The notes beneath the pieces were generated by a model that did no database searches, was not told where the DNA came from, and was given only the letters and a program-made list of their open reading frames with translations. 64,000 nucleotides of DNA from Costus lasius (Eukaryota > Streptophyta > Magnoliopsida > Zingiberales > Costaceae). The stretch spans positions 48,264,596 to 48,328,595 of the forward strand of contig CM050454.1 in assembly GCA_027563935.2 (NCBI GenBank), written 5' to 3'. The first letter of the stretch is position 1. The number at the start of each line of letters is the position of its first letter. Positions 12,397 through 61,507 of the stretch are shown piece by piece. The position numbers were made by a program, and so were the translations under genes.

Positions 12397-13552
12397 TGAA
12401 AGTCCCCAAGGGGGGGCGAAACCCTATGCATGTAGATATAAATCTATGCAAGGCAGAATCTAGGGTTTCCTAGGATCGCTAATATGACATATGATCAACT
12501 TGTATAGAATGCAAAAAATTCTTACCAATGCCATTTCTTGGATGGCGACTTGGAAGCAGAGAGTGATGCTGCTCTCCTCCTAAGTAGACGCACACAAATG
12601 AGATCGCTTCCTCCTTGGCGTTCCTTGTGCTAGCAAAGATCTCCAAGAGTCCTGATCGAATGGAAGGGGATGAGATCAATTCCTGCTTGGCGTATCACTT
12701 TTCTCCTCCTTGGCGTGAGCCTTCTTCACCACACGAGAGAGCAAGTGGGGACGAGAGAAGAGGAGAGGCGAGAATAGAGGCAAATCCCTCAAACGTGAGG
12801 CGTGGTCTCAACTTGAGATCATGGCTTCTAAAAATAGCAAGCCACCTCTTCATGCGACCATGGGTTTACCCCAATCGCATTTTCCTCTTCCCTTTGAACC
12901 ATGCGCTCACATAATGAGCCGGTTCATTTTGGTTTGGTTCAAAGACCAAATAAACCCAAGCATCTGGTCCAGATCACAATAAACCCTAAAGGTTCAAGAT
13001 CCAACCGTTCATCTCTTGATGCTCCTGATCTCACCGATCTAGCATCAATTCTCTCGATCGAAGCTTACCGATCTCAAGCCCTAATCAATCAAACATGATC
13101 AGACCAGATCTCACTTACAATCAGAGATTAAATCCCTTTAAACTGAACCAAAATAATTCAGTCCACACGATCTGACTTAAGTAAGCCATATCATCAAATT
13201 GTGCGACCCTAAGGGTTTCCTTTAAATGTCGGTAACGATAACTTACGTTATCACGATCAATGAGGGGTATCTAGCAACACATCACTGTCTCCCGATATAA
13301 AGGAAAGAGTCTTCCAAGACTACACCCAAACCACAGTACAAGTGTGAATCCATTTCACTAGGCATACAAGTTTCCTTTGCCACTGGATGTTCTTATTGGA
13401 CAAGCGTGTCAAGCCTGTAGCTCCAATATGATGAGCATGATTAGATCAGATGAACATAGTCATCTGGGTATGGCCATACACTTTCTCAATCATCTCATCC
13501 AGGGGGCCCCTTTAGAACATCACACTCCAAACTAGGAGATGGCAATCCTATG
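12397..13552 (-). repeat. Element D 3' LTR, part 1 (left of E)
   Basis: The left boundary is TGAAAGTCCCC at 12397. The sequence matches 54967-56120 in the same orientation, with scattered substitutions. It includes the copia exon-1 signal (minus-strand ATG at 12534) and the TATA-like CTATTTTTAG read on the minus strand at 12838-12828. It is interrupted at 13552 by element E; ctatg (13548-13552) is the left TSD copy. Confidence 0.9.
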
Positions 13553-22037: not shown

Positions 22038-23747
22038 TGTTGGGGTATGCCCTTAAGGCTAATGTTTGAGGCCTTGGGATTCTTTCAGTATCATGTATAA
22101 ACTCTTAAGTGTATAAACTCTTAAGTTTATAAAGGCAATGGTTGTTATTCAGTTTGTTACATTGTCTGCTGCAATAAGTGTGCTTCTGAATAATGTCTCA
22201 ATGCTGTTCAGCTAGGCTGACATGCTCTATGTCCTTAGTCGAGATATCTTGGTGAACATGAGACAGCCTTGATATGATGGAGACTAATATGTGTTCTAAT
22301 CTTATAGGATGCTTCGAGCATGGAATAAGATGTAGACTCATGGGTACATTGGATGTACTGGACAGACCCTACTAGGATATTCAATTGCTTGTCACAATGT
22401 GAATAATCCTTGTTTGCAACAAGTGGCACATATCCTCTGACTTGAGATCACTTGTGTTTCTAAATGATGATTGTCATTGTTTTGAGGTAGTTCAATATCA
22501 TTTGAAACATAATGGTTATAGATTATCTTGGATAATGATCATGAGTCAGGTTAGGGCACTAGTGATAGATATAGGATTGCCGTCTCCTTGTTTAAGGAGT
22601 GTGATGTTCTAAAGGGGCCCCCTGAATGAGATGATTGAGAAAGTGTATGGCCATACCCAGGTGACTATGTTCATCTGATCTAATCATGCTCATCATATTG
22701 GAGCTACAGGCTTGACACGCTTGTCCAATAAGAACATCCAGTGGCAAAGGAAACATGTATGCCTAGTGAAGTGGATTCACACTTGTGCTGTGGTTTGGGT
22801 GTAGTCTTGGAAGACTCTTTCCTTTATATCGGGAGACAGTGATGTGTTGCTAGATACCCCTCACTGATCGTGATAAAGTAAGTTATCGTTACCGACATTT
22901 AAAGGAAACCCTCAGGGTCGCACAATTTGATGATATGGCTTACTTAGGTCAGATCGTGTGGACTGAATTGTTTTGGTTCAGTTTAAAGGAGTTTAAACTC
23001 TGATTGTAAGTGAGATCTGGTCTGATCATGTTTGATTGATTAGGGCTTGAGATCGGTAAGCTTCGATCGAGAGATTTGATGCTAGATCAGTGAGATCAAG
23101 AGCATCGAGAGATCAACGGTTAGATCTTGAACCTTTAGGTTCAATGAGATCGACCATGGCTTGGGCTGATTTAATTTGGTCTTGAACCAAATTCAATTGA
23201 ACCGGCTCATCATGTGAGCGCTTGGTTCAAAAGGATCAAAGGGTGAAGAGGAGTTGCGTTCGGTTCACTTGAAGTGAACGCATAACGCTTGAGAAATAAT
23301 GGGTTGCTATTTTTGGAATGTTTTTGCAACGCCTCCACGTTCATGAGGAACGTTTTCTCTTATCGCCTCTCATCACCTCTTGACGTTTTGCTTGCTCTCG
23401 TGTGACGACTCTCTCGACGAGTGTAGAGAAGGCTTTCGGCAAGCACCAAGAGATCTCATCTCCTCCACGCAAAGAACTCCTTAGAACCTTGCTAGCACAA
23501 GGAGCACTAAGGGAGTAGGCGACATCATTTGTGTGCGTACCATTTGGAGGAGAAGCGCTTGAGTCTCTTCTTCCTAAACGCCATCCAAGCAATGGCTTTG
23601 GTAAGAATCGTTTCCTTGATTCTTGTTTGCAATCGCATATAAGTTGATCTTATAATATGTAAAGATCCTAGAAACCCCCTTCCGCTGCATGAAAAACTCC
23701 ATATGCGCCTATCTAGGGTTTCGCTCCCCCTTGAAGGGGACTCTTCA
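22038..23747 (+). repeat. Element C 5' LTR (1710 bp)
   Basis: Starts TGTTGGGGTATG, ends GGGGACTCTTCA. Within it are the TATA-like GCTATTTTT at 23306-23314 and the candidate first coding exon ATGGCTTTG at 23592-23600, followed by GTAAGA. Short open frames at 22235 and 23341 recur in the other LTRs and are not supported. Confidence 0.95.
23306..23314 (+). promoter_or_regulatory. Candidate copia TATA element (C; also D, F, G, I)
   Basis: The motif CTATTTTT(A/G) lies 280-308 bp upstream of the exon-1 ATG in every LTR of the family: 23306 (C), 46511 (F), 59104 (G), 62743 (I), and minus-strand 12838 (D 3' LTR). Constant spacing over diverged flanks supports a core-promoter role, but no start site can be seen. 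Confidence 0.35.
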
Positions 23748-23749
23748 AT

Positions 23750-23761
23750 TGGTATCAGAGC
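23750..23761 (+). other. Primer-binding site of element C
   Basis: TGGTATCAGAGC matches initiator tRNA-Met exactly, two bases after the LTR end at 23747. Confidence 0.92.
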
Positions 23762-24649
23762 GAGGTTTGTGCATATTTTATGATTGCTTTAGCCTTTGTG
23801 ATCCTTGTATGCTTAGATCTTCTTTACATGCGAGATTTACATGTAAGTTATTCATGCCGAAACTTGATATATGTTTCCTTTGCGCATGGTTGTTTGCGCT
23901 TGTTGTTTTTCTCAAAAACTTCATGACATGCGCGACTATCATTAGATCTAAGCAGCGCCTACTATAAACCCTTAGACGGGTTAGTAGGGTTGAAGTCATC
24001 TTCTAGGAAGGATCCAAATAGTCTGATCAGACCATCTGACAGCCTAGATGGGTCGACCAGATGGCACCTATGCGCATGCATAAGGTGGCTATAGGTCGAC
24101 TGCATCAAGGGCGTGTAGCGAGGTCTGGTTGAGACAACCCTTGAACGCGCATGAGTTAGGCCCGGGGTCACACCCGCTTGCCAGAACTCATGAAGGCTGT
24201 TCAGCCCTTGGCGCATGCATGGTTGACCATTAGGTCAACTCAAGTCAGTTAGGACTTGGTGCATGTAAGGGCAGTGGATCTGACTAGTCATGATGAGTGG
24301 ATCCCTATTAATGGACCGTTGTAAGGTGGTAGGGCACATAAGAAAAATAAAATTGATTTCAATGGGATTTTGAAATTTTATTTTGTCTGTGGATCACATG
24401 TTGATTGTAAGCATATGCTTGTTTATTTAATCTTATGTGGGATGCCTAATTTAATGTGTGCTGTGCTGGGGCCTGCGTGCCTGGAATAAATTATAAATTA
24501 ATTTTTATTGTGATCTGCGCATCACATTTTATTTAATTTATAAAGTGTAATTGACCTGCGAGTCAAACTTGTCTAGATAGATTAAATTGTAATTTAATCA
24601 GACAAGAGCACAGAGCACACTTGGCAGAGGCGCATGCAGCAGAGGCTTG

Positions 24650-24700
24650 ACCAGGTGGGAGGTCCAGGGTTCGACCCTGTGACAGGCGCAATTACCTGGT
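24650..24700 (+). other. Leader hairpin with UUCGA loop (element C)
   Basis: The core stem CAGGG/CCCTG closes a TTCGA loop (24665-24679). An outer stem ACCAGGT (24650-24656) pairs with ACCTGGT (24694-24700). Homologous hairpins occur in F (47887-47903), G (60434-60450) and D (minus, 44948-44932) with compensatory changes. The loop region also matches a Pol III B-box (GGTTCGACCC), but there is no convincing tRNA. Confidence 0.6.
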
Positions 24701-25017
24701 GGGCGCACCTGAGCTGCAGTGGGCGCTTGGGCCCTGGGTTGGGCCAGATGAGATGCAAAAGACCCATGAAGAAAGCTCAAGTGAAGACTTAAGTGAAAAT
24801 TAAGGTCTTACTTAGGGTTAATGGGCTTTTACCACATAAGATCAGCATGCTTTCTACTTATCGTTTTTATAATTAGAAGTGCATGATTTGTTTATCTTCT
24901 GCTATCACCATAGGGTTTGCATGATAGTTAAGAAGATAAAAGACCGTTAAAATCCAACGCTAGAAATATCAAGCACGTAAGCCTTCTGACGCGAAACCTC
25001 ACTGTTCTGACTATCGT

Positions 25018-25053
25018 TGGGGCCGTGTTGTACCCACTCAGTGGGCACGCCCA
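25018..25053 (+). other. Leader twin hairpin 1 (element C)
   Basis: From the outside in: TGGG pairs CCCA, a GC bulge, CGTG pairs CACG, a TTGTA bulge, CCCAC pairs GTGGG, loop TCA. The 36-base arrangement is kept in F (48229-48264), G (60784-60819) and D (minus, 44601-44566). In F the outer stem is TGGA/TCCA, a double compensatory change. Confidence 0.65.
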
Positions 25054-25228
25054 TCTATCTTCAGACGGTGTGCGATTTCACCTGCGTGTTACAGAGAAGG
25101 GATTTATCGCTTCTCGTTGCTCAGCATAGCACGTGGTGGTGCAGGGAGTAGGTCAGGTCAGCTTGACCATGTAGGCTACATACTGAGCATATGTGAGCTA
25201 TATGGAGGCAGCCATCTGTGGGATCAGA

Positions 25229-25260
25229 GACTGTGTTGTACCAACTCAGTTGGCACAGTC
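25229..25260 (+). other. Leader twin hairpin 2 (element C)
   Basis: GACTGTG pairs CACAGTC, with the same TTGTA bulge, then CCAAC pairs GTTGG around the same TCA loop. It is a paralogue of the hairpin at 25018-25053: one inner pair is C-G there and A-U here. Copies are at 48441-48472 (F), 60995-61026 (G, outermost pair lost) and 44388-44357 minus (D). Confidence 0.65.
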
Positions 25261-25540
25261 TGCTAGATTGCCCAGATGAAGGGGAATCGCACGGGTTGGC
25301 GATTGGCAGGGACTGCCTACCAGAAATTAGTGCTTGTACTCTCTGTGCATCTTATCTCGCCTGAGCGGGACGCGGAGACCAAGTATGAAATCTGGATCCC
25401 ATCTCACTAAAAGAGTGTTACTCTTTCGGACTGTTTAATGGATTTTTCAGTCAGATAAAATAGTGAGAAAAGAATCTTTCTTAAGTCCTGGATTGATTCT
25501 AAACATTGATACTGACCTTGCTATTCTTGCATTGTTGTAG

Positions 25541-28500
25541 ATTCCTGCAGCAACGAACACCATGAGCTTCAATGTGCGATCCCTACTGGAAAGGGAGAAG
25601 TTTGCAGGGCCAAACTTCTCAGACTGGTACGGACACCTTAAGATTGTTCTTAAGGCAGAGAGGAAACTGTATGTCCTCGAGACGGCTACACCGCCTCAAC
25701 CCGCTCCGAACGCCGCAAGGGCGGTTCGGGAAGCCTATGAAAAGCATGTCAATGATAGCATTGATGTTGCTTGCCTGATGCTAGCGTCTATGACGCCACA
25801 GCTGCAGCGTCAGCATGAGGATATGTCTGCTATAGAAATGATAGCAAACCTCAAGATGCTATATGCTGCACAGGCGAGGACTGAGCGCTATAATTTGACC
25901 AAGCTTTTCTTTCAGAGCAAACTGGCTGAAGGGAGTCCAGTGGGAGCTCATGTGCTCAAGATGATTGGGCACAAAGAGGCTCTAGAGAAACTGGGGCATA
26001 CCATCAATCAGGAGCTTGCTGTAGACATTATTCTGCAGTCTCTCCCGGCCTCTTTCGATCCGTTCATTATTAATTTTAATATGAACAAGATCGACTGTAC
26101 TCCGGTAGAGTTGCTGAATATGCTCTTGACTACAGAGGAAACTCTAAAGGGAAAGCCTTCAACCTCTGTCTTGATGTTTCCTTCTAGGAACAAGAAGAAG
26201 GGGAAGAAGGGCAAAGCCCCTGTCAAGAATTACAACAAGGCTCTGAAACAGAAGGTTAAGCGGTCGAAGGAATACAGGTGTTTCCACTGTGGCCAGCTAG
26301 GTCACTGGAAAAAGGACTGTAAAGCGCTCCAAGGAGACAAGAAGGGAAGCATCGCTTCTGGCTCAGGTATTTTCGTGACTGAAGTCATGATATCCTCTTC
26401 TTCTATTTCATGGGTGTTGGACACTGCATGTGGAGTTCACATTTGTTCAAATGTACAGGAACTCAAGAGAAGAAGACAGGTGGGACAGCATGAGGTGGAC
26501 CTACGAGTTGGAAACGGGGCACGGGTTGCTGCTGTTGCTGTAGGGGTTTATTACATCTCATTACCATCTGGTCTTGTATTAGAACTGGACAATTGTTATT
26601 TTGTTCCGAGTATTACGAAAAATATTATCTCTATTCCTGCTCTTGTCAGGAAAGGATTTTCCTTTGAATGCAATATTTCAAAGTGTGTTCTTACTTATGA
26701 TAATATTGTTTATGCTACTGGATCAATTAACAATGGGTTATTCATGTTGGACATGGAATGTTCTGTACAAAACATTGATAATAAGAAAGCCAAGTATGCT
26801 GATGACAGCACCTTGTTATGGCATAGTCGTTTAGGCCATATTAACAAGAAACGCATTAAGCGGTTGCATGATCATGGACTACTGGGATCATTCTCCTATG
26901 AGGAGATTGATACATGCAAAGCTTGTTTATTGGGTAAAATGACGAAGTCTCCTTTTCCTAACAAAGGTCAAAGGGCTTCAGGTTTACTTGACCTTATACA
27001 CAGTGATGTGTGTGGGCCATTTAGTAAACATGCCAGAGGTGGCTATTCATACTTCATTACCTTTACTGATGATTTCAGTAGATATGGGTATGTCTATCTA
27101 ATGAGACATAAGAGTGAATCCTTTGACAAGTTCAAAGAGTTCAAAAATGAAGTACAGAATCAACTAGGCCGAAATATCAAGGCACTTCGTTCTGATCGAG
27201 GTGGAGAATACCTAAGTCGAGAGTTTATTGACTATCTGAAGGAGTGTGGGATGATCTCACAGCTCACTCCGCCAAGAACACCGCAATGGAATGGTGTGTC
27301 CGAGAGGAGGAACAGAACATTACTGGATATGGTTCGTTCTATGATGAGTCAGGCTGCTCTACCTTACTCCTTTTGGGGATTTGCACTGGAAACAGCTGCA
27401 AAGGTACTAAACCGAGTGCCATCCAAGGCAGTTTCAAAGACTCCATATGAGTTATGGTATGGGAAACAGCCTAGCTTGACATTTATTAAGATCTGGGGTT
27501 GCGAGGCTTATGTCAAAAAGCTCGCCTCTGGGAAACTAGAGAACAGATCTGAGAAATGCATCTTTGTCGGTTACCCTAAGGAAACTAAGGGTTATTATTT
27601 CTACGATCCCAAAGAGAATAAGGTATTTGTTGCTCGGACGACCATTTTTCTTGAGAAGGAGTTTCTTCTGCAAGAGGCCAGTGGGAGAGAAATAAAGGTG
27701 GATGAGAATCCACAGGAAGGACAAAGTAGTCAAGCACAGTTGGATGTGCCTGAGCCAGTAGAACAGGTTATTGAACAACCTGAGGCTCAGATATCATGGG
27801 AACCGCGAAGATCGGGAAGGATTCGTCGACAGCCTGAGCGCTATGACGGAGTCTACATCATTGATCATGATGAACCCCTCACTTATGCGGATGCGGTCAG
27901 TGGACCGGAGTCAGCTAGATGGCTTGATGCTATGCGAGCCGAGATGGACTCCATGTCAGATAACCAAGTCGGGATTTGGTTGATCCGCCTCCGGGAGTAA
28001 TCCCTATAGGCTGTAAATGGATCTTCAAGAAGAAGATTGACATGGATGGTAACGTGGTTACCTATAAAGGCAGGCTAGTTGCGAAAGGTTTCAAACAAAT
28101 CTACGGGATAGATTATGATGAAACTTTCTCTCCTGTAGCCATGTTCAAGTCTATTCGGATTCTTTTCGCGATAGCAGCATATTATGATTATGAGATCTGG
28201 CAAATGGATGTGAAGACTGCTTTCCTTAATGGAAAACTGGATGAGGATGTGTATATGACACAACCTGAAGGATTCACTAACCCATCAGATCGTCATAAAA
28301 ATATGCAAGTTAAAGAAGTCTATTTATGGACTTAAACAAGCATCTAGGAGCTGGAATATTCGTTTTGATGAATCAATCTCTGAGTTTGGTTTCATCAAGA
28401 ATGAAGATGACCCGTGTGTATATAAGAGGTTTAGTGGGAGCGTGATTACTTTCCTAGTCCTCTACGTCGATGATATCTTAATCATTGGAAACGATACTCC

Positions 28501-40310: not shown

Positions 40311-42021
40311 TGTTGGGGTATGCCCTTAAGGCTAATGTTTGAGGCCTTGGGATTCTTTCAGTATCATGTATAAACTCTTAAGTGTATAAACTCTTAAGTT
40401 TATAAAGGCAATGGTTGTTATTCAGTTTGTTACATTGTCTGCTGTAATAAGTGTGCTTCTGAATAATGTCTCAATGCTGTTCAGCTAGGCTGACATGCTC
40501 TATGTCCTTAGTCGAGATATCTTGGTGAACATGAGACAGCCTTGATATGATGGAGACTAATATGTGTTCTAATCTTATAGGATGCTTCGAGCATGGAATA
40601 AGATGTAGACTCATGGGTACATTGGATGTACTGGACAGACCCTACTAGGATATTCAATTGCTTGTCACAATGTGAATAATCCTTGTTTGCAACAAGTGGC
40701 ACATATCCTCTGACTTGAGATCACTTGTGTTTCTAAATGATGATTGTCATTGTTTTGAGGTAGTTCAATATCATTTGAAACATAATGGTTATAGATTATC
40801 TTGGATAATGATCATGAGTCAGGTTAGGGCACTAGTGATAGATATAGGATTGCCGTCTCCTTGTTTAAGGAGTGTGATGTTCTAAAGGGGCCCCCCTGAA
40901 TGAGATGATTGAGAAAGTGTATGGCCATACCCAGGTGACTATGTTCATCTGATCTAATCATGCTCATCATATTGGAGCTACAGGCTTGACACGCTTGTCC
41001 AATAAGAACATCCAGTGGCAAAGGAAACATGTATGCCTAGTGAAGTGGATTCACACTTGTGCTGTGGTTTGGGTGTAGTCTTGGAAGACTCTTTCCTTTA
41101 TATCGGGAGACAGTGATGTGTTGCTAGATACCCCTCACTGATCATGATAACGTAAGTTATCATTACCGACATTTAAAGGAAACCCTCAGGGTCGCACAAT
41201 TTGATGATATGGCTTACTTAGGTCAAATCGTGTGGACTGAATTGTTTTGGTTCAGTTTAAAGGAGTTTAAACTCTGATTGTAAGTGAGATCTGGTCTGAT
41301 CATATTTGATTGATTAGGGCTTGAGATCGGTAAGCTTCGATCGAGAGATTTGATGCTAGATCAGTGAGATCAAGAGCATCGAGAGATCAACGGTTAGATC
41401 TTGAACCTTTAGGTTCAATGAGATCGACCATGGCTTGGGCTGATTTAATTTGGTCTTGAACCAAATTCAATTGAACCGGCTCATCATGTGAGCGCTTGGT
41501 TCAAAAGGATCAAAGGGTGAAGAGGAGTTGCGTTCGGTTCACTTGAAGTGAACGCAAAACGCTTGAGAAATAATGGGTTGCTATTTTTGGAATGTTTTTG
41601 CAACGCCTCCACGTTCATGAGGAACGTTTTCTCTTATCGCCTCTCATCACCTCTTGACGTTTTGCTTGCTCTCGTGTGACGACTCTCTCGACGAGTGTAG
41701 AGAAGGCTTTCGGCAAGCACCAAGAGATCTCATCTCCTCCACGCAAAGAACTCCTTAGAACCTTGCGAGCACAAGGAGCACTAAGGGAGTAGGCGACATC
41801 ATTTGTGTGCGTACCATTTGGAGGAGAAGCGCTTGAGTCTCTTCTTCCTAGACGCCATCCAAGCAATGGCTTTGGTAAGAATCGTTTCCTTGATTCTTGT
41901 TTGCAATCGCATATAAGTTGATCTTATAATATGTAAAGATCCTAGAAACCCCCTTCCGCTGCATGAAAAACTCCATATGCGCCTATCTAGGGTTTCGCTC
42001 CCCCTTGAAGGGGACTCTTCA
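40311..42021 (+). repeat. Element C 3' LTR (1711 bp)
   Basis: Starts TGTTGGGGTATG, ends GACTCTTCA; one base longer than the 5' LTR because of an extra C in the run near 40890. D pol resumes after the TSD ataat. Confidence 0.95.
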
Positions 42022-44076
42022 ATAATAACCCTCAGTTTCCTTAGGGTAACCGACAAAGATGCATTTCTCAGATCTGCTCTCTAGTTTCCCAGAGGCGAGC
42101 TTTTTGACATAAGCCTCGCAACCCCAGATCTTAATAAATGTCAAGCTCGGCTGTTTCCCATACCATAACTCATATGGCATCTTTGAAACTGCCTTGGATG
42201 GCACTCGGTTTAGTACCTTTGCAGCTGTTTCCAGTGCAAATCCCCAAAAGGAGTAAGGTAGAGTAGCCTGACTCATCATAGAACGAACCATATCCAGTAA
42301 GGTTCTGTTCCTCCTTTCGGACACACCATTCCATTGCGGTGTTCCTGGCGGAGTGAGCTGTGAGATAATCCCACACTCCTTCAGATAGTCAGTAAACTCT
42401 CGACTCAAGTATTCACCACCTCGATCTGAACGAAGTGCCTTGATATTTCGGCCTAGCTGATTCTGTACTTCATTCTTGAACTCTTTGAACTTGTCAAAAG
42501 ATTCACTTTTATGTCTCATTAGATAGACATACCCATATCTACTGAAATCATCAGTAAAGGTAATGAAGTATAGATAGCCACCTCTGGCATGTTTACTGAA
42601 AGGCCCACACACATCACTGTGTATAAGGTCAAGTAAACCTGAAGCCCTTTGACCTTTCTTAGGAAAAGGAGACTTCGTCATTTTACCCATTAAACAAGCT
42701 TTACATGTATCAATCTCCTCATAGGATAATGATCCCAGCAGTCCATGATCATGCAACCGCTTAATGCGCTTCTTGTTAATATGGCCTAAACGACTATGCC
42801 ATAGCAAGGTGCTATTATCATCATACTTGGCTTTCTTAATATCAATTTGTTGTATAGAACATTCCATGTCCAACATGAATAATCCATTGTTAATCGACCC
42901 AGGAGCATAAACAATATTATCAAAAGAAATAATACACTTTGAAATATTGCATTCAAAGGAAAACCCTTTCCTGACAAGAGCAGGAATAGAGATAATATTT
43001 TTCATAATGCTTGGTACAAAGTAACAATTGTCCAGTTCCAATACAAGTCCAGATGGTAAAGAGATGTAATAAACGCCTACAGCAACAGCAGCAACCCGTG
43101 CCCCGTTTCCAACTCGTAGGTCCACCTCATGCTGTCCCACCTGTCTTCTTCTCTTGAGTTCCTTTACATTTGAACAAATGTGAACTCCACATGCAGTGTC
43201 CAACACCCATGATATGGAAGAAGAAACCATGACCTCAGTCACAAAAATACCTGAGCCAGAAGCGAAACTTCCCTTCTTGTCTCCTTGGAGCGCTTTACAG
43301 TCCTTTTTCCAGTGACCCAGCTGGCCACAGTGGAAACATCTGTATTCCTTCGACCGCTTAACCTTTTGTTTCAGAGCCTTGTTGTAGTTCTTGACAGGGG
43401 CTTTGCCCTTCTTCCCTTTCTTCTTGTTCCTAGAAGGAACCAGCAAGACAGTGGATGAAGGCTTTCCCTTTCGAGTCAACTCTGTAGTCAAGAGCATATT
43501 CAGCAACTCTGCCGGGGTACAGTCGATCTTGTTCATATTAAAATTAATGATGAACGGATCAAAAGTAGCCGGAAGAGACTGCAGGATAATGTCTACAGCA
43601 AGCTCCTGATTGATGGTATGTCCCAGTTTCTCAAGAGCCTCCTTGTACCCAATCATCTTGAGTACGTGAGCTCCCACTGGACTCCCTTCAGCCAGTTTGC
43701 TCTGAAAGAAAAGCTTAGTCAAATTGTAGCGTTCAGTCCTAGCCTGTGCAGCATACAGCAGCTTGAGGTTTGCTATAATTTGTATAGCAGATAGATCCTC
43801 ATGCTGACGCTGCAACTCTGGCGTCATAGACGCAAGCATCAGGCAAGCGACATCAATGCTATCATTGACATGCTTCTCATAGGCATCCCGAATCGCCCTT
43901 GCGGCGTTCGCAGCGGGTTGAGGCGGTATAGCCGTCTCGAGGACATACAGCTTCCTCTCAGCCTTAAGAACAATCTTAAGGTGTCCGTACCAGTCTGAGA
44001 AGTTTGGTCCAGCAAACTTCTCCCTTTCCAGTAGGGATCGCATATTGAAATTCGTGGTGTTCGTTGCTACAGTAAT
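42022..44076 (-). pseudogene. gag-pol: Element D gag-pol, 5' segment (Gag, protease, integrase)
   Basis: The minus-strand frame is open from the putative splice acceptor (AG at 44078-44077) to the C insertion at 42022. It encodes Gag, a CCHC knuckle, a protease with DTACG, and most of integrase with its catalytic residues. The codon that is ATG in C and F is ACG here, so the conventional start is lost; the first in-frame ATG is at 44043, four codons later. The segment itself has no stop, which fits initiation elsewhere (see the LTR exon). Translation beyond it is cut by element C. Confidence 0.9.
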
Positions 44077-45283: not shown

Positions 45284-46947
45284 TGTTGGGGTATGCCCTT
45301 AAGGCTAATGTTTGAGGCCTATGGGAATGTATCTGTATCATGTAATAAACTCTTATGTTTATAAAGGCATGGTTGTTATTCAGTTAGTTACATTGTCTGC
45401 TGCAATATATGTTCTTCTGAATAATGTCTCAAAGCTGTTCAGCTAGGCTGACATGCAGTTAAGTCCTTAGTCGAGATATCTTGGTGAACATGAGACAGCC
45501 TTGATATGATTGAGACTAATATGTGTTCTAATCTTATAGGATGCTTCGAGCATGGAATAAGATGTAGACTCATGGGTACATGGGATGTACTGGACAGACC
45601 CTACTAGGATGTTCAATTGTTTGTCGCAATGTGAATATTCCTTGAGTATGACAAGTGGCACATTTCCTCTGACTTGAGATCACTTGTGTTTTCTAAATGA
45701 TGATTGTCATTGTTTTGAGGTAGTTCAATATCATTTGAAACATAATGATTATAGACTATCTTGGATGGTGAGCTTGAGTCAGGTTAGGGCACTAGTGATA
45801 GACATAGGATTGCCGTCTCCTTGTTTAAGGAGTGTGATGTTCTAAAGGGGCCCCCTGGATGAGATGATTGAGAAAAGAGTATGGCCATACCCAGGTGACA
45901 GTGTTCATCTGTTCTAATCATGCTCATCATATTGGAGTTACAAGCTTGACATGCTTGTCCAATAAGAACGTCCAGTGGTAAAGGAAATATGCATGCCTTG
46001 TGATTTGATTCACATTTGTGCTGTTTTTGGGTGTAGTCTTGGAAGACTCTTTCCTTTATATCGGGAGACAGTGATGTGTTGCTAGATACCCCTCACTGAT
46101 CGTGATAATGTGAGTTATCGTTACCGACATTTAAAGGAAACCCTCAGGGTCGCACAATTTGATGATATGGCTTACTTAAGTCAGATCGTATGGACTGTAT
46201 TGTTCGGATTCAGTTTAAAGGGATTTAATCTCTGATTGTAAGTGAGATCTGGTCTGATCATGTTTGATTGATTAGGGCTTGAGATCGGTAAGCTTCGATC
46301 GAGAGAATGAATGCTAGATCGGTCAGATCAGAAGCATTAAGAGATCAACGGTCAGATCAAGAACCTTGTGGTTTAATTATGATTTGGACTGGTTGCTTGG
46401 CTTGATTAGTTCTTAAACCGAACCAATGTGAACCGGCTCATGAAATGAGCGCATGGTTCAAGGCTTGGCGAGTTGTTCACTTGGCGTGAACATTGGAGCG
46501 AACGTGGTGGCTATTTTTAGTAACCATGATCTCCACTTGGAGATAACGCTCACGTTCGAATAGTGCTTACTACTCTCGCCTCTCAAGCGACCTCTTCTCT
46601 TGACGCTTTCGTGTGTGGCGACGTCTTGAAGGTTGAGGAGGATTCGGCCAAGAAGTTCATCATCCCTTTCCATTCGATCAAGGACACTTTGTAGCCTTGC
46701 TAGCACAAGGAGCAACAAAGAGTTTGCCATCATCCTCTTGTGTGCGAGACTTTGGAGAAGTGGCATTTGCGATTTTTCTTCCAAGGCGCCATCTAGAAAT
46801 GGCTATGGTATGAATCGTTTTATTCATGCTGATTTTATAAGCTAATCATAATGCATGCAAAGATCATTGAAACCCTTTTTCCGCTGCATCTATATCTCCA
46901 TATGCGCCTGTAGGGTTTTACCTCCCCTTATTCTAGGGGATCTTTCA
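45284..46947 (+). repeat. Element F 5' LTR (1664 bp)
   Basis: Starts TGTTGGGGTATG, ends GGGGATCTTTCA. The candidate coding exon ATGGCTATG lies at 46799-46807, followed by GTATGA. The TATA-like motif is at 46511-46520. Confidence 0.95.
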
Positions 46948-48754
46948 ATTGGTATCAGAGGGCTGGTTGAAGCATGTTTTTTTATGATTGCTTAACGCTT
47001 GAGCCATTTTTGTGATCCTTGTATGCGCCATATTGCTAGATCTAGGCTACATGCGAACCTTTACTTGTTGTGTATTGTAGTTGACGCATGTAGTAAGGTA
47101 GCGCTTCTATATGTTCTTGTTGATGTTTTCTTAAAAACTCAAACGACTTGCGCGCACACCATTAGATCTAAGTGCCGCCTGCATTAAACCCTTAGACGGG
47201 TTATTAGGGTTGAAATCATCCCCTGTGTTAGATCCAAACAGTCTGATCAGACCATCTGACAGCCTGAATGGGTCGACCAGTTAGCACTTTGGCGCAAGCC
47301 TATGGTGGCTATAGGTCGACTGCAGACAGGTGTGTAGCGATGTCTGATTGAGACACCCAATGAACGCACCTGAGTTAGGCCCGGGGTCACGCCCGCTTGC
47401 CAGACCTCAGTGTGGTCGTTCAGCCCTGGCGCATGCATGGTTGACCTTATGGTCAACACAAGTCAGTTAGGACTTGGTGCATGCAAGGGCAGTGGATTTG
47501 ACTAGGTTGGTTGAGTGGATCCCTAGTAATGGACCGTTGTAAGGTTGTAGGGGAAATAAGGAAAAAATTAAAATTGATCCCAAGGGGTTTTTCGAAAATT
47601 TTAATTTTTATGATGGATCACATGATGCTGATTGGATGCATATGTTTGTCTATTTAGTCTTATGTGGGCTGCTCATATTAATTGTGTGCTGTGCTGGGGC
47701 CTGCGTGCCTGTATTAAATTGTAAATTAATTATTGTGATCTGCGCATCACTGTGTTTTAATTTATAAATGTTAGTGACCTGCGTGTCACTCTTGTCTAGA
47801 TAGTTAAATTTGTAATTTAATTAGACAAGAGCACAAAGCACACTTGGCAGAGGCGCATGCAGCAGTGGCTGGACCAGGTGGGAGGTCCAGGGTTCGACTC
47901 TGGGACCAGGCGCAAATTCCTGGTGGGCGCACCTGTGCTGCAGATGGCGCTTGGGCCCAGGTTTGGGCCAGATGAGCAGCAAAAGACCCATGAAGAGCAA
48001 ATGAAGACTTAAGTTAGGTTAAGGTCTTCTAGGGCTATGGGCTTTTACCACATAAGATACATGCTTTCTTTTATTGCTTAAATATTGGAATTGCATGATC
48101 AAATTATCTTCTGCTATCACCATAGGAATTGCATGATAGGCAAGAAGATAAAAGACCGTTAAAATCCAACGCTAAAATATCAAGCTCGTAAGCCTTCTGA
48201 CGCGAAACCTCACTGTTCTGATTATCGTTGGAGCCGTGTTGTACCCACTCAGTGGGCACGTCCATCTATCTTCAGAGGGTGTGGGATTACACCTGTGTGT
48301 TACAGAGTAGGGATTTATCCCTTCTCGTTGCTCAGCATAGCACATGGTGGTCCAGGGAGTAGGTCGGGTCAGCTTGACCGTGTTGGCTACATATGTGGCG
48401 CATATGGTAGCACATGGAGGCAGCCATCTGTGGGATCAGAGACTGTGTTGTACCAACTCAGTTGGCACAGTCTGCTGGATTGCCCAGATGAAGGGGAATC
48501 GCACGGGTTGGCGATTGGCTGGGACGCCTACCAGAAACTAGTGCTTGTACTCTCTGTGCATCTTATCTCGCCTGAGCGGGACGCGGAGACCAAGTATGAA
48601 ATCTGGATCCCATCTCACTAAAAGAGTTCTACTCTTTCGGGCTGTTTTGCTGGATTTTTCACGCCTGATAAAATAGTGAGAAAAAGAATCTTTCTTAAGT
48701 CCTGATTGATTCTTATACATTGATACTGACCTTGCTGTTCTTGCATTGTTGTAG
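46808..48754 (+). other. Candidate leader intron of element F
   Basis: Donor GTATGA at 46808, acceptor ending TTGTAG at 48754; length 1947 bp. Exon 1 (three codons) joins in frame to seven codons before the gag ATG at 48776. It contains the primer site TGGTATCAGAGG (46950-46961), the palindrome GTCTGATCAGAC (47241-47252), the UUCGA-loop hairpin (47887-47903) and twin hairpins (48229-48264 and 48441-48472). Confidence 0.58.
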
Positions 48755-51700
48755 ATACCTGCAGCAACGAACACCATGAACTTCAATGTGCGATCCCTAC
48801 TGGAAAGGGAGAAGTTTGCTGGGCCGAACTTCTCTGACTGGTTTGGACACCTTAAGATCGTTCTTAAGGCAGAGAGGAAACTGTATGTCCTCGAGACGGC
48901 GATATCGCCGCAGCCCGCTCCGAACGCCGCAAGGGCGGTTCGGGAAGCCTATGAAAAGCACGTCAATGATAGCATTGATGTCGCTTGCCTGATGCTAGCG
49001 TCTATGACGCCACCGCTGCAGCGTCAGCATGAGGATATGTCAGCTATACAGATTATAGCAAACCTCAAGATGCTGTATGCTGCACAGGCGAGGACTGAAC
49101 GCTATAATTTGACTAAGCTCTTCTTTCAGAGCAAACTGGCTGAAGGGAGCCCAGTGGGAGCTCACGTGCTCAAGATGATTGGGCACAAGGAGGCTCTGGA
49201 GAAACTGGGGCACACCATCAACCAGGAGCTTGCTGTGGACATTATTCTGCAGTCTCTCCCGCCATCATTCGACGCGTTCATTATTAACTTTAATATGAAC
49301 AAAATCGATTGTACGCCGGCAGAGCTGTTGAATATGCTCTTGACTACTGAGGAAACTCTGAAGGGTAAGCCTTCAACCTCTGTCTTGATGGTTCCTTCTA
49401 GGAACAAGAAGAAGGGGAAGAAGGGCAAGGCCCCGGTCAAGAATTACAGCAAGGCTCTGAAGCAGAAGGTGAAGCGGTCCAAGGAATACAGGTGTTTCCA
49501 CTGTGGCCAGCTGGGTCACTGGAAAAAGGACTGTAAAGCGCTCCAAGGAGACAAGAGGGGAAGCTTTGCTTCTGGCTCAGGTATATTCGTGACTGAGGTC
49601 ATGTTTTCATCTTCTTCTATATCATGGGTGTTGGACACTGCATGTGGAGTTCACATTTGTTCAAATGTGCAGGAACTCAAGAGAAGAAGGCAGGTGGGAC
49701 AGCATGAGGTGGACCTACGCGTTGGAAACGGGGCACGGGTTGCTGCTGTTGCTGTAGGAGACTACTTCATTTCTTTACCATCTGGAATTGTATTGGAACT
49801 AAACAGTTGTTACTTTGTTCCCAGTATAACTAAAATATTATCTCCATTCCTGCTCTTGTCAGGAAGGGATTTTCCTTTGAATGCAATATTTCAAAGTGTA
49901 TTTTGTCTTTAGATAATATTGTTTATGCAACTGGTTCAATTAACAATGGGTTATACATGTTGGACATGGAATGTTCGATACAGCAAATTGATATTAAGAA
50001 AGCCAAGTATGCTGATGACAGCACCTTGCTATGGCATAGTCGTTTAGGCCATATTAACGAGAAACGCATTAAGCGGTTGCATGATAATGGACTGCTGGGA
50101 TCATTCTCCTGTGAGGAGATTGATACATGCAAGGCTTGTTTAATGGGTAAAATGACGAAGTCACCTTTTCCTCACAAAGGTCAAAGGGCTTCAGGTTTAC
50201 TTGACCTTATACACAGTGATGTGTGTGGGCCATTCAGTAAACATGCCAGAGGTGGCTATCAGTACTTCATTACCTTTACTGATGATTTCAGTAGGTATGG
50301 CTATGTCTATCTGATGAGACATAAGAGTGAATCTTTTGACAAGTTCAAAGAGTTCAAGAATGAAGTACAAAATCAGCTAGGCCGTAATATCAAAACACTT
50401 CGCTCAGATCGAGGTGGTGAATACCTAAGTCATGCGTTTACTGACTATCTAAAGGAGTGTGGGATTATCTCACAGCTCACTCCACCAGGAACACCGCAAT
50501 GGAATGGTGTGTCCGAGAGGAGAAATAGAACGTTACTTGATATGGTTCGTTCTATGATGAGTCAGGCTTCTTTACCCAACTCCTTTTGGGGTTTTGCACT
50601 GGAAACAGCTGCAAAGGTACTAAACCGAGTGCCATCCAAGGCAGTTTCTAAGACGCCATATGAGTTATGGTATGGGAAACAGCCGAGCTTGACATTTATC
50701 AGGATCTGGGGCTGCGAGGCTTATGTCAAAAAGCTCGCCTCTGGGAAACTAGAGAGCAGATCTGACAAATGTATCTTTGTCGGTTACCCTAAGGAAACTA
50801 AGGGTTATTATTTCTACGATCCCAAAGAGAACAAGGTTTTTGTTGCTCGGACGGCCATATTTCTTGAGAAGGAGTTTCTTCTGCAAGAGGCCAGTGGGAG
50901 AGAAATAAAGCTGGATGAGAATCCAGAGGTAGGACAAAGTGACCAAGCAGAATTGGATGAGCCTGAGCCGGTAGAACAGGTTATTGAACAACCTGAGGCT
51001 CAGATATCACGGGAACCGCGAAGATCGGGTAGGATCCGTCGACAGCCTGAGCGCTATGACGGAGTCTACATCATTGATAATGATGAACCCCTTACTTATG
51101 CGGAAGCGGTCAGTGGACCGGAGTCAGCGAGATGGCTTGAAGCTATGCGCGCCGAGATGGACTCCATGTCAGATAACCAAGTTTGGGATTTGGTTGATCC
51201 GCCTCCGGGAGTTATCCCTATAGGCTGTAAATGGATCTTCAAGAAGAAGATTGACATGGATGGTAACGTAGTTACCTATAAAGGCAGGCTAGTTGCGAAA
51301 GGTTTCAAACAAATCTACGGGATAGATTATGATGAAACTTTCTCACCTGTTGCCATGTTTAAGTCTATTCGGATTCTTTTCGCGATAGCTGCATATTATG
51401 ATTATGAGATCTGGCAGATGGATGTGAAAACAGCTTTCCTTAATGGAAATCTGGATGAGGATGTGTATATGACACAACCTGAGGGTTTCACTAATCCAGC
51501 GGATCGTCATAAGATATGCAAGTTAAAGAAGTCCATTTATGGACTTAAGCAAGCATCTAGAAGCTGGAATATTCGTTTTGATGAATCAATCAGTGAATTT
51601 GGTTTCATCAAGAACGAGGATGACCCGTGTGTTTATAAGAGGTTTAGTGGGAGCGTGATTACTTTCCTAGTCCTCTACGTCGATGACATCTTGATCATTG

Positions 51701-52679: not shown

Positions 52680-54343
52680 TGTTGGGGTATGCCCTTAAGG
52701 CTAATGTTTGAGGCCTATGGGAATGTATCTGTATCATGTAATAAACTCTTATGTTTATAAAGGCATGGTTGTTATTCAGTTAGTTACATTGTCTGCTGCA
52801 ATATATGTTCTTCTGAATAATGTCTCAAAGCTGTTCAGCTAGGCTGACATGCAGTTAAGTCCTTAGTCGAGATATCTTGGTGAACATGAGACAGCCTTGA
52901 TATGATTGAGACTAATATGTGTTCTAATCTTATAGGATGCTTCGAGCATGGAATAAGATGTAGACTCATGGGTACATGGGATGTACTGGACAGACCCTAC
53001 TAGGATGTTCAATTGTTTGTCGCAATGTGAATATTCCTTGAGTATGACAAGTGGCACATTTCCTCTGACTTGAGATCACTTGTGTTTTCTAAATGATGAT
53101 TGTCATTGTTTTGAGGTAGTTCAATATCATTTGAAACATAATGATTATAGACTATCTTGGATGGTGAGCTTGAGTCAGGTTAGGGCACTAGTGATAGACA
53201 TAGGATTGCCGTCTCCTTGTTTAAGGAGTGTGATGTTCTAAAGGGGCCCCCTGGATGAGATGATTGAGAAAAGAGTATGGCCATACCCAGGTGACAGTGT
53301 TCATCTGTTCTAATCATGCTCATCATATTGGAGTTACAAGCTTGACATGCTTGTCCAATAAGAACGTCCAGTGGTAAAGGAAATATGCATGCCTTGTGAT
53401 TTGATTCACACTTGTGCTGTTTTTGGGTGTAGTCTTGGAAGACTCTTTCCTTTATATCGGGAGACAGTGATGTGTTGCTAGATACCCCTCACTGATCGTG
53501 ATAATGTGAGTTATCGTTACCGACATTTAAAGGAAACCCTCAGGGTCGCACAATTTGATGATATGGCTTACTTAAGTCAGATCGTATGGACTGTATTGTT
53601 CGGATTCAGTTTAAAGGGATTTAATCTCTGATTGTAAGTGAGATCTGGTCTGATCATGTTTGATTGATTAGGGCTTGAGATCGGTAAGCTTCGATCGAGA
53701 GAATGAATGCTAGATCGGTCAGATCAGAAGCATTAAGAGATCAACGGTCAGATCAAGAACCTTGTGGTTTAATTATGATTTGGACTGGTTGCTTGGCTTG
53801 ATTAGTTCTTAAACCGAACCAATGTGAACCGGCTCATGAAATGAGCGCATGGTTCAAGGCTTGGCGAGTTGTTCACTTGGCGTGAACATTGGAGCGAACG
53901 TGGTGGCTATTTTTAGTAACCATGATCTCCACTTGGAGATAACGCTCACGTTCGAATAGTGCTTACTACTCTCGCCTCTCAAGCGACCTCTTCTCTTGAC
54001 GCTTTCGTGTGTGGCGACGTCTTGAAGGTTGAGGAGGATTCGGCCAAGAAGTTCATCATCCCTTTCCATTCGATCAAGGACACTTTGTAGCCTTGCTAGC
54101 ACAAGGAGCAACAAAGAGTTTGCCATCATCCTCTTGTGTGCGAGACTTTGGAGAAGTGGCATTTGCGATTTTTCTTCCAAGGCGCCATCTAGAAATGGCT
54201 ATGGTATGAATCGTTTTATTCATGCTGATTTTATAAGCTAATCATAATGCATGCAAAGATCATTGAAACCCTTTTTCCGCTGCATCTATATCTCCATATG
54301 CGCCTGTAGGGTTTTACCTCCCCTTATTCTAGGGGATCTTTCA
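52680..54343 (+). repeat. Element F 3' LTR (1664 bp)
   Basis: Follows the polypurine stretch GTGGGAGAT (52671-52679). It is almost identical to 45284-46947 and is followed by the TSD atgtg and D leader. Confidence 0.95.
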
Positions 54344-54966
54344 ATGTGCCCTACTACCTTACAACGGTCCATTAATAGGGATCCACTCATCAGATCTAGT
54401 CAGACCCACTGCCCTTGCATGCACCAAGTCCTAACTGACTTGAGTCGACCCAGTGGTCAACAATGCATGCAATTGGGCTGAATGACCCTCATGAGTTCAG
54501 GCAAGCGGGTGTGACCCCGAGCCCAACTCATGCGCGTTCACTGGTTGTCTCAACCAGACATCGCTACACGCCTGTATGCAGTCGACCTATAGCCACCTCA
54601 TGCTTGCGCACAGGTGCCATCTGGTCGACCCATCTAGGCTGTCAGATGGTCTAATCAGACTTGTTGGGTCTGGACTGGATGATGACTTCAACCCTAATAA
54701 CCCGTCCAAGGTTTTACAGTAGGCGCTTATAGATCTAAGTGAGGCGCGCAAGTTAACAAGTTTTGAACAAAAACTACAACATGCGCCTACATAAGCATAC
54801 TAAATACATGCGCCACAAGTAAAATACATTCATCTAGTATTTTCGCTTGATGAGAAAACTATCATGAACATTCGCATGTAATTAACCTTAGATCTATGCA
54901 TCAACATAAACATGGATCACAAAGCAATCATATGATTCATACATCAACCAATCCTCTGATACCAAT
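54344..54966 (-). other. Element D leader, distal part with primer site
   Basis: This carries the D leader between F and the D 5' LTR. The primer site reads TGGTATCAGAGG on the minus strand at 54964-54953. The leader palindrome is degenerate here (GTCTAATCAGAC at 54649-54660). No gene. Confidence 0.85.
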
Positions 54967-56637
54967 TGAAAGTCCCCAAGGGGGGGTGAAACCCTATGCA
55001 TGCAGATATAAATCTATGCAAGGCGGAATCTAGGGTTTCCTAGGATCGCTAATATGACATATGATCAACTTGTATAGAATGCAAAAAATTCTTACCAATG
55101 CCATTTCTTGGATGGCGACTTGGAAGCAGAGAGTGATGCCGCTCTCCTCCAAAGTAGACGCACACAAATGAGATCGCTTCCTCCTTGGCGTTCCTTGTGC
55201 TAGCAAAGATCTCCAAGAGTCGTGATCGAATGGAAGGGGATGAGATCAATTCCTGCTTGGCGTATCACTTTTCTCCTCCTTGGCGTGAGCCTTCTTCACC
55301 ACACGAGAGAGCAAGTGGCGACGAGAGAAGAGGAGAGGCGAGAATAGAGGCAAATCCCTCAAACGTGAGGCGTGGTCTCAACTTGAGATCATGGCTTCTA
55401 AAAATAGCAAGCCACCTCTTCATGCGACCATGGGTTTACCCCAATCGCATTTTCTCTTCCCTTTGAACCATGCGCTCACATAATGAGCCGGTTCATTTTG
55501 GTTTGGTTCAAAGACCAAATAAACCCAAGCATCTGGTCCAGATCACAGTAAACCCTAAAGGTTCAAGATCCAACCGTTCATCTCTTGATGCTCCTGATCT
55601 CACCGATCTAGCATCAATTCTCTCGATCGAAGCTTACCGATCTCAAGCCTAATCAATCAAACATGATCAGACCAGATCTCACTTACAATCAGAGATTAAA
55701 TCCCTTTAAACTGAACCAAAACAATTCAGTCCACACGATCTGACTTAAGTAAGCCATATCATCAAATTGTGCGACCCTAAGGGTTTCCTTTAAATGTCGG
55801 TAATGATAACTTACGTTATCACGATCAGTGAGGGGTATCTAGCAACACATCACTGTCTCCCGATATAAAGGAAAGAGTCTTCCAAGACTACACCCAAACC
55901 ACAGCACAAGTGTGAATCCATTTCACTAGGCATACAAGTTTCCTTTGCCACTGGATGTTCTTATTGGACAAGCGTGTCAAGCCTGTAGCTCCAATATGAT
56001 GAGCATGATTAGATCAGATGAACATAGTCATCTGGGTATGGCCATACACTTTCTCAATCATCTCATCCAGGGGGCCCCTTTAGAACATCACACTCCAAAC
56101 TAGGAGATGGCAATCCTATGTCTATCACCAGCGCCCCAACATGACTCATGCTCACCATCCAAGATAGTCTATAACCATTATGTTTCAAATGATATCGAAC
56201 TACCTCAAAACAATGCCAATCATCATTTAGAAACACAAGTGATCTCAAGTCAGAGGAAGTATGCCACTTGTTCGCATACAAGGATTATTCACATTGTGAC
56301 AAGCAATTGAACATCCTAGTAGGGTCTGTCCAGTACATCCAATGTACCCATGAGTCTACATCTTATTCCATGCTCGAAGCATCCTATAAGATTAGAACAC
56401 ATATTAGTCTCAATCATATCAAGGTTGTCTCATGTTCACCAAGATATCTCGACTAAGGACTATACTGCATGTCAACCTAGCTGAACATCATTGAGACATT
56501 ATTCAGAAGTATACATATTGCAGCAGATAATGTAACAACCTGAATAACAACCATTGCCATTATAAACATGAAGTTTATACATGATACTGGTATAATCCCA
56601 AGGCCTCAAACATTAGCCTTAAGGGCATACCCCAACA
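54967..56637 (-). repeat. Element D 5' LTR (1671 bp)
   Basis: Uninterrupted partner of 12397-13552 plus 19646-20167. On the minus strand the coding exon ATGGCATTG spans 55104-55096, followed by GTAAGA. The LTR ends at 56637 and the TSD gtcct follows. Confidence 0.94.
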
Positions 56638-57871: not shown

Positions 57872-59392
57872 TGTTGGGGTATGCCCTTAAGGCTAATGTT
57901 TGAGGCCTTGGGTTGTTATCAGTATCATGTATAAACTCTATGTTTATAAAGGCAATGGTTGTTATTCAGGTTGTTGCATTATCTGCTGCTATATGTATAC
58001 TTCTGAATAATATCTCAATGGTGTTCAGCTTGGCTGACATGCAGTATTGTCCTTAGTCGAAATATCTTGGTGAACATGAGACAACCTTGATATGATTGAG
58101 ACTAATATGTGTTCTAATCTTATAGGATGCTTCGAACATGGAATAAGATGTAGACTCATAGGTACATTGGATGTACTGGACTGACCCTACTTAGGATATT
58201 CAATTGTTTGTCACAATGTGAATAATCCTTATATGCAAACAAGTGGCATATTTCCTCTGACTTGAGATCACTTGTGTTTCTAAATGATGATTGGCATTGT
58301 CTTGAGGTAGTTCAATATCATTTGAAATATAATGGTTATAGATTATCTTGGATAATGGGCATGAGTCATGTTAGGGCATTAGTGATAGATATAGGATTGC
58401 CTCTCCTTGTTGGAGTGTGATGTTCTAAAGGGGCCCCCTGTATGAGATGGTTGAGAAAGTGTATGGCCATACCCAGATGACTATGTTCATCTGATCTAAC
58501 CACTCTCATCATGTTGGAGTTACAGGCTTGACACGCTTGTCCAACGAGAACATCCAGTGGCAAAGGAAACACATATGTCAAGTGAATTGGATTCACACTT
58601 GTGCTATGGTTTGGGTGTAGTCTTGGAAGACTCTTTCCTTTATATCGGGAGATAGTGATGTGTTGCTAGATACCCCTCTCTGTTCGTGATAATGTAAGTT
58701 ATCATTACCGACATTTAAAGGAAACCCTTAGGGTCGCACAATTTGATGATATGGCTTACTTATGTCAGATCGTGTGGACTGAATTGTTTTGGTTCAGTTG
58801 AAAGGAGTTTAAACTCTGATTGTAAGTGAGATCTGGTCTGATCATGTTTGATTGATTAGGGCTTGAGATCGGTAAGCTTCGATCGAGAGAATTGATGCTA
58901 GATCGATGAGATCAAGAGCATCAAGAGATGTGTGGTTAGATCTTGAGCCTTTCGGTTTAATAAGGTCTAGACCAAGGCTTGGTTTGATTTGGTCTTTGAA
59001 CCAAATTCTATAGAACCGGTTCATTATATGAACGCATGGTTCAAAGGGAGAAGAAGAGGCGATCGGTTCACTTGGAGTGAACGCATCATGCGTTGAGGGC
59101 TTGCTATTTTTGGAAGTTGAATTTTTTTCCAAAATAGAAGCACGCCTCCACGTTCGAGGGTAACGCTTCTCTCGTCGCCCATCTTCTACTCTCGAGACTC
59201 CTCTCATTTTGAGGAAGAGAGACTTCCGCCAAGAGAGCATCTCATTCTCCTCACACGGCTAGGACACCTTGGAGAGCTTTGCTAGCACAAGGAACGCCAA
59301 GAAGGAAGCCATCACCATCTTGTGTGCGTTCACTTTGGAGGAGAGCCACATCGCCCTCTTATTTCCAAGTCGCCATCCAAACAATGGCTATG

Positions 59393-61306: not shown

Positions 61307-61507
61307 ATTCCTGCAGCAACGAACACCACAGGGTTCAATGTGCGATCCTTACTGGAAAGGGAGAAGTTTGCTGGGCCAAACTTCTCAGACTGGTACGGAC
61401 ACCTTAAGATTGTTCTTAAGGCTGAGAGGAAGCTGTATGCCCTTGAGACGGCAATACCGCCTCAACCCGCTGCGAACGCCGCAAGGGCGGTTCGGGATGC
61501 TTATGAG
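61307..61507 (+). pseudogene. gag: Element G gag, N-terminal fragment
   Basis: About 67 codons of copia Gag are open from the acceptor to the insertion of element I. The codon that is ATG in C and F is ACA here and the first residues differ, so the conventional start is missing, yet the frame from the acceptor is clean. The remainder of G should lie beyond I, outside the window. Confidence 0.85.

Follow-up and report, generated by a model that had tools for sequence, protein, structure and literature searches.

How one retroelement RNA can serve as both mRNA and genome is an old question, and it is raised again by a copia-type family of long terminal repeat (LTR) retrotransposons in Costus lasius whose LTRs carry an ATG closely followed by a candidate splice donor. 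The window analysed here is a stretch of 64,000 nt (contig CM050454.1, positions 48,264,596 to 48,328,595, forward strand). It is a nest of LTR retrotransposons in which this one family is present as five lineages, C, F, G and I on the plus strand and D on the minus strand. A first-pass annotation had suggested that splicing from the LTR creates the Gag start and separates translation from packaging. We put at about 0.73 the probability that in this young plant Ty1/copia family Gag is translated from an mRNA that takes its start codon from the 5′ LTR, joined to gag by splicing. Transcription would start inside the 5′ LTR, after a CTATTTTT motif, and the first AUG would be that of the sequence ATG-GCN-(T/A)TG, which a splice donor immediately follows. 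About 1.9 kb, comprising the LTR end, the primer-binding site (PBS) and the leader, would be spliced out, joining a 9-nt coding exon in frame to the IPAATNT... of Gag. Unspliced RNA would keep the primer site and be the sole form able to be reverse transcribed.

A candidate coding exon in the LTR

The sequence ATG-GCN-(T/A)TG followed by GT was found in 8/8 LTR copies of the window that span the site:

23592..23600, plus strand: proposed coding exon 1 of C, ATG GCT TTG (ATGGCTTTG), donor GTAAGA
41866..41874, plus strand: exon 1 copy in the C 3′ LTR
46799..46807, plus strand: exon 1 of F, ATG GCT ATG, donor GTATGA
54195..54203, plus strand: exon 1 copy in the F 3′ LTR
55096..55104, minus strand: exon 1 of D, ATG GCA TTG, donor GTAAGA
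12526..12534, minus strand: exon 1 copy in what would be the D 3′ LTR
59384..59392, plus strand: exon 1 of G, ATG GCT ATG, weak donor GTGAAA
63051..63059, plus strand: exon 1 of I, ATG GCC ATG, donor GTATGA, with gag beyond the window

There are seven exact matches to ATGGCNWTGGTAWGAAT in the window, against a mean of 0.00 in 100 shuffles of it; the eighth copy, in G, is missed because its donor reads GTGAAATC. All seven matches lie in homologous LTRs, and they therefore reflect conservation within the family rather than independent origins. Since 907 of the first 1080 LTR positions (84%) are invariant over the five lineages, conservation in that part is uninformative. For the same reason the 30-nt window on exon 1 appeared ordinary in a whole-LTR comparison (65% of windows as high), and only the comparison within the hypervariable LTR end (23280-23748) is informative. 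Here 126 of 469 columns (27%) are invariant, against 9 of 11 for exon 1 plus its GT (hypergeometric P about 2e-4 relative to this background), and just downstream, at 23603-23660, the count is 9/58. Two exon-1 columns vary, one being the silent third base of the Ala codon (T, A or C) and the other the opening base of a Leu/Met codon. Of the 459 11-column windows in this part, 18, falling at four places, are equally conserved, so the exon-1 signal is clear yet not unique.

The three further places of equal conservation favour a different explanation, in which the LTR motif has another role (promoter, R-region, polyadenylation control or donor for another product), transcription starts elsewhere and the in-frame junction is a by-product. 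TATAAA sites near the LTR 5′ end and higher-scoring GTs within the leaders, both taken up below, fit this explanation as well, and a precedent exists in the foamy virus LTR donor, which suppresses 5′-LTR polyadenylation via U1 (PMC3694450). Against it, the bases that vary are a silent site and Leu/Met, and the GT behind exon 1 is the sole one common to C, F and G that runs the first AUG into gag. We consider this explanation very unlikely.

As a separate observation, conservation changes sharply between 22038-23116 and 23280-23748, which may mark recombination or fast evolution of the promoter or leader.

Predicted splice sites and reading frame

The features beyond exon 1 on which the proposed splice depends are the following:

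23601..25540, plus strand: proposed intron of C, GTAAGA ... TTGTAG, 1940 nt, holding the LTR end, PBS and leader
25510..25516, plus strand: branch-point-like TACTGAC of C, conserved in C, F, G and D
25541..28000, plus strand: proposed exon 2 of C, IPAATNT then the gag-pol frame, open to the stop at 28000
25562..25564, plus strand: 'conventional' gag ATG of C, 21 nt past the acceptor
46808..48754, plus strand: proposed intron of F, 1947 nt, PBS at 46950
48755..49912, plus strand: proposed exon 2 of F, gag frame to the stop at 49912
59393..61306, plus strand: proposed intron of G, 1914 nt, PBS at 59529
61307..61507, plus strand: proposed exon 2 of G, cut by the insertion of I, 67 codons without Met
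43000..44076, minus strand: proposed exon 2 of D (part read), ITVATNTTNFNM..., open as it stands

The coordinates that the first-pass annotation had given for the candidate junctions in C, F, G and D, and for exon 1 and donor of I at 63051, were all confirmed. In each of the four copies whose gag start is visible (C, F, G and D), exon 2 is preceded by TACTGAC, a pyrimidine-rich tract and TTGTTGTAG. Splice sites were ranked with plant donor weights and an acceptor score, both of our own making and not those of a trained predictor; acceptors were ranked in C, F and G, and donors of D and I over the first 800 nt. The proposed acceptor came first among 143 (C), 129 (F) and 133 (G) AGs. Donors ranked 4/129 in C, 2/141 in F, 3/63 in D and 2/65 in I, and only 12/131 in G. 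On these scores the donor appears good, not outstanding, and that of G weak. A donor just past the C PBS (GAG/GTTTGT) scores higher, but by eye it is not kept in the other lineages and was rejected.

The joined frames begin MALIPAATNTM in C, MAMIPAATNTM in F, MAMIPAATNTT in G and MALITVATNTT in D, and contain no stop in the lengths read (MALIPAATNTMSF, MAMIPAATNTMNF, MAMIPAATNTTGF and MALITVATNTTNF, respectively). The junction thus falls in the same frame in all four copies, as claimed from the 21 nt that separate acceptor and gag ATG. Fusions were then enumerated with exon 2 taken as 300 nt, or 198 nt for G because of the I insertion. From 240 nt upstream of the LTR ATG to the acceptor, only 3 of 125 GTs in C, 1 of 136 in F and 1 of 126 in G let the first AUG run openly into gag, and the GT at +9, directly behind exon 1, is the only one common to the three. 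With exon 1 held fixed, the AGs giving an open fusion number three in each lineage (of 133 in C, 120 in F and 125 in G).

The codon before exon 2 is TAG in 4/4 copies, an in-frame stop that is itself part of the acceptor, and therefore an unspliced upstream AUG cannot reach IPAATNT in that frame. Through the predicted splice, the LTR ATG can be joined to it in frame.

Transcription start and upstream AUG codons

One LTR feature bears on where transcription begins:

23307..23314, plus strand: CTATTTTT motif in the C LTR, found 280-308 nt before the LTR ATG in 5/5 lineages

The longer form CTATTTTT(A/G)G (23307-23316 and equivalents) is present in all five lineages, inside a diverged stretch, and would fit a TATA-like or MADS-type CArG-like element. 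Pyrimidine-rich stretches lie downstream of it; in the zone 240-160 nt upstream of the ATG, the share of LTR windows that surpass the best pyrimidine window there is 0% in C, 0.5% in F, 1.7% in D, 0% in G and 5.9% in I. Transcription would start, probably, some tens of bases past the motif, and a start just past it would make the LTR ATG the first AUG. The 240 nt before exon 1 hold no ATG in 5/5 lineages.

On unspliced RNA the open reading frame (ORF) from the LTR ATG is short, with 16 codons in C and 4 in F, as had been noted at first pass, and 8 in G, 24 in D and 4 in I. The intron then holds 44 ATGs in C, 44 in F and 54 in G, so little Gag would be expected from unspliced RNA. The PBS lies inside the proposed intron in C, F and G, and TGGTATC at 54964 lies inside that of D; a spliced mRNA could therefore not prime reverse transcription. 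The suggested separation of translated from genomic RNA thus follows in part. Little support was obtained for the accompanying claim of leader hairpins lost on splicing: an inverted-repeat search of the C leader gave three weak pairs only.

An alternative without splicing would give the short ORF at the LTR AUG, present in 5/5 lineages, a regulatory role. Unspliced RNA would then be translated into Gag through internal entry, reinitiation or ribosome shunting in the manner of pararetroviruses, which are known to shunt over long leaders (PMC5902531). Such a route would have to pass 44-54 intervening ATGs, and the TAG shuts the frame just before IPAATNT. It leaves unexplained both the conserved branch-like motif, tract and acceptor and the donor-like sequence behind the short exon, and it seems to us very unlikely.

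The Gag N-terminus and its relatives

Were Gag to begin at 25562, the 21 nt ahead of that ATG would go untranslated. Yet the seven residues that they encode, IPAATNT, are similar to N-terminal sequences of related plant Gags (MATNTQTLSLRS, MAANTNTLSLRS, MAPTASNTSSFNLRS and others of the kind). Relatives were drawn from protein matches, one set comprising 120 of 490, and 50 distinct N-terminal strings fitting the pattern were taken from 152 proteins, those without the pattern being dropped. Compared with these 50 strings, none of 600 stop-free leader windows scored as high as IPAATNT, and among 400 permutations of IPAATNT itself 4 did. In an alignment with 12 relatives chosen by hand from the matches, the Met with which the relatives begin lines up with codon 3 of exon 2, which in this family encodes Ala (Val in D), a placement that nearby gaps make approximate. 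The ancestral start was therefore probably near the acceptor and has since been replaced. Met-Ala, as the LTR exon would supply, opens 72 of 115 sorted N-termini (our own count, with many Hibiscus copies).

At the position of the 25562 ATG, C and F encode Met, G and D Thr, and this ATG is probably an internal codon. The earlier statement that D and G lack the conventional ATG and keep the frame open is upheld, whereas its wording that they 'have lost' the ATG is doubtful, as the alignment puts the ancestral start further upstream. Among the matches listed, the closest relative is P0157, a 96-aa protein on an 897-bp contig that is 91% identical; its annotated start is a later internal Met, where D also has Met. 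None of the 163 N-termini inspected among the 167 annotated proteins matched begins with MAL or MAM followed by an exon-2-like sequence. One protein, P0022, begins MAL and was judged by eye to be a mis-frame of the Gag core.

Three scans of viral contigs yielded no DNA of relatives. A search of genome contigs returned 131 pattern matches, one of which was a distant copia contig, L001. Its copia gag (region L001:94-200, with 138 nt upstream of the ATG) has an acceptor-like TTTATTTCAG exactly before the ATG, hinting that leader introns may be more widespread. L001 is filed under the bacterium Labilibacter sediminis, and contamination is probable. The same applies to P0129, a plant-like copia Gag on a 2.9-kb contig that is assigned to the bacterium Weizmannia coagulans.

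The acceptor-like site of L001 would equally suit ordinary splicing of the 5′ untranslated region, which would remove the AUG-rich leader and let Gag start at the conventional ATG (25562 in C), the LTR AUG being incidental or an optional extension. That ATG is kept in C and F in fair context, and GTs upstream of the LTR ATG that would make it the first AUG are available (10/125 in C and 12/136 in F), although none of them scores above 2. With the +9 donor, on the other hand, the LTR AUG would be first and in frame; D and G have no conventional ATG and their frame is still open; and the residues upstream of it resemble the relatives' Gag. We therefore hold this alternative to be unlikely.

Elements and family assignment

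Assignment of the family follows from these features:

22038..23747, plus strand: 5′ LTR of element C, with TG...CA ends
23750..23761, plus strand: PBS of C, TGGTATCAGAGC
56637-54954, minus strand: 5′ LTR of D
20169-19646 and 13551-12396, minus strand: probable pieces of the D 3′ LTR

Paired TG...CA LTRs with a PBS, as in Ty1/copia elements, are found in C and F, the PBS being TGGTATCAGAGC after the LTRs of C, G and I and TGGTATC after those of F and D. The Gag is counted as copia-type through PF14223, a domain carried by the relatives. The C ORFs seem to hold integrase-like and then reverse transcriptase-like residues in that order, as read by eye. The long LTR and leader are reminiscent of BARE (Angela lineage). 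The LTR pairs are nearly identical (1702/1711 in C and 1662/1663 in F), so these copies are young. D would be, from its coordinates, a single element broken up by later insertions, of F into the leader and of C into the polyprotein region; its probable 3′ LTR matches the 5′ LTR at 1133 of 1145 aligned positions. Element I is inserted within gag of G.

Counted from the conventional ATG, the C frame runs on for 812 codons without a stop. In F the long ORF after gag lies in another frame than gag: its gag-pol consists of two ORFs in different frames within 48776-52659, overlapping at 49903-49912, despite a difference of 1/1663 between its LTRs; this arrangement may be either damage or a form of expression control.

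Two sets of tandem repeats were also seen in the window. Repeats of 51 nt at 15566-15933, in the gag-like region of another element (PBS 15205), seemingly encode a proline-rich repeat. Repeats of 74 nt at 1488-1873 and 9587-9972 share the same internal pattern and are separated by 8.1 kb.

Weight of the evidence and its meaning

Creation of the Gag start by splicing from the LTR, the central claim of the first-pass annotation, is well supported by sequence, namely by the conserved exon 1, the top-ranked acceptor, the stop just before exon 2 and the Gag-like beginning of exon 2. The splicing event itself, the transcription start and the packaging of unspliced RNA are what we infer from this anatomy. 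If the splice is real, translation and replication would be separated; that unspliced RNA is selectively packaged is a guess.

Several findings weigh on the other side. The support comes from the DNA of one window, in copies of shared ancestry. Each lineage has GTs that score higher than the proposed donor, which in G is weak, and two of the three AGs that give an open fusion lie inside gag in C, F and G. GC content differs little between intron (0.44-0.45) and gag (0.48-0.50) in C and F, the intron being slightly the poorer, and an AU-rich intron was accordingly dropped as support. The ATG-free 240 nt are weak evidence in any single lineage, arising by shuffling with a chance of 0.18 in C, 0.05 in F, 0.30 in G, 0.05 in D and 0.03 in I, and the lineages are related; they were not retained as proof. 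C has an ATG 249 nt upstream of the LTR ATG, so the ATG-free margin is thin. Use of the TATAAA sites near the LTR 5′ end (LTR positions 59-92) would leave as many as 42 ATGs upstream in C. The GTs described above that would make the conventional ATG the first AUG count here also. Finally, the relatives' gene models start at their own ATG, and no exon of the proposed kind was seen among them.

If the LTR start is real, start codon and primer site lie on opposite sides of the donor, and translation and replication therefore cannot share one molecule. Gag dosage would be tied to host splicing, and ORF-based annotation would misplace the start of Gag in such families, an error that may have been made for P0157. 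The exact junction given here can be looked for in plant RNA-seq.

Comparison with known systems

In the open-licence literature no report of a gag start codon in an LTR was found by title or abstract opening among the matches listed, and the available text of PMC6317226 and PMC2829016 mentions no leader intron in copia elements. Splicing in the service of Gag is nevertheless established in plant copia elements, as the first-pass annotation had said of BARE1 and EVADE. In BARE1 of barley, whose lineage is tabulated as Angela (PMC6317226), 104 nt are spliced out within gag to give a Gag-only RNA, with separate RNA pools (PMC3735527). BARE1/BARE2 are thus alike in being plant copia elements in which splicing favours Gag and the pools for translation and replication are distinct. 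They differ in that the BARE intron is internal to gag and introduces a stop, the start codon stays in place, and separation is by two promoters, capping and polyadenylation. EVADE of Arabidopsis, also Ty1/copia, has a spliced Gag mRNA from which the protease region is removed (PMC12786077), by an intron downstream of gag and not in the leader. An intron of the BARE/EVADE type, at or after the gag end and cutting off Pol, is not what is proposed here, since the present one precedes gag; a second intron was not searched for.

Closer in position is Diaspora of soybean (Ty3/gypsy), in which LTR donors and acceptors flanking the gag start were predicted, with their relevance called unknown; its authors stated in 2005 that an intron upstream of gag was unreported till then (PMC1142308). 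The likeness lies in the predicted sites, and the difference in that these were predictions alone and a start codon in the LTR was not proposed. Foamy viruses have their major splice donor within the LTR, where it blocks 5′-LTR polyadenylation (PMC3694450); there, however, Gag is made from full-length RNA (PMC9143442) and the donor acts on poly(A) choice. A broader reading would make an LTR-encoded Gag start a general, overlooked mode of a plant copia lineage, in which the gag AUG had shifted to the LTR and spliced RNA alone would yield Gag and unspliced RNA alone would be copied, with the LTR donor perhaps also recruiting U1 to block 5′-LTR polyadenylation in foamy-virus fashion, so that the same dozen bases would set start codon, splicing and RNA fate. 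We offer this tentatively and rather doubt it. In Rous sarcoma virus the env mRNA has a few codons with the AUG spliced to a downstream ORF; that AUG, in contrast, belongs to gag and lies outside the LTR, and Env is the protein made.

The nearest mechanism, by analogy, is that of rice tungro bacilliform virus (RTBV), where splicing fuses a short leader ORF to the distant ORF IV to give the P4 mRNA (PMC5902531). RTBV differs in being a pararetrovirus without LTRs and in that its product is P4, not Gag. C, F, G and D likewise have, by anatomy only, a short upstream ORF that carries a donor and shares its frame with the ORF behind the acceptor. Splicing from a start codon in the LTR would probably be a new form of retroelement splicing; BARE1 and EVADE, as described, leave the start unmoved.

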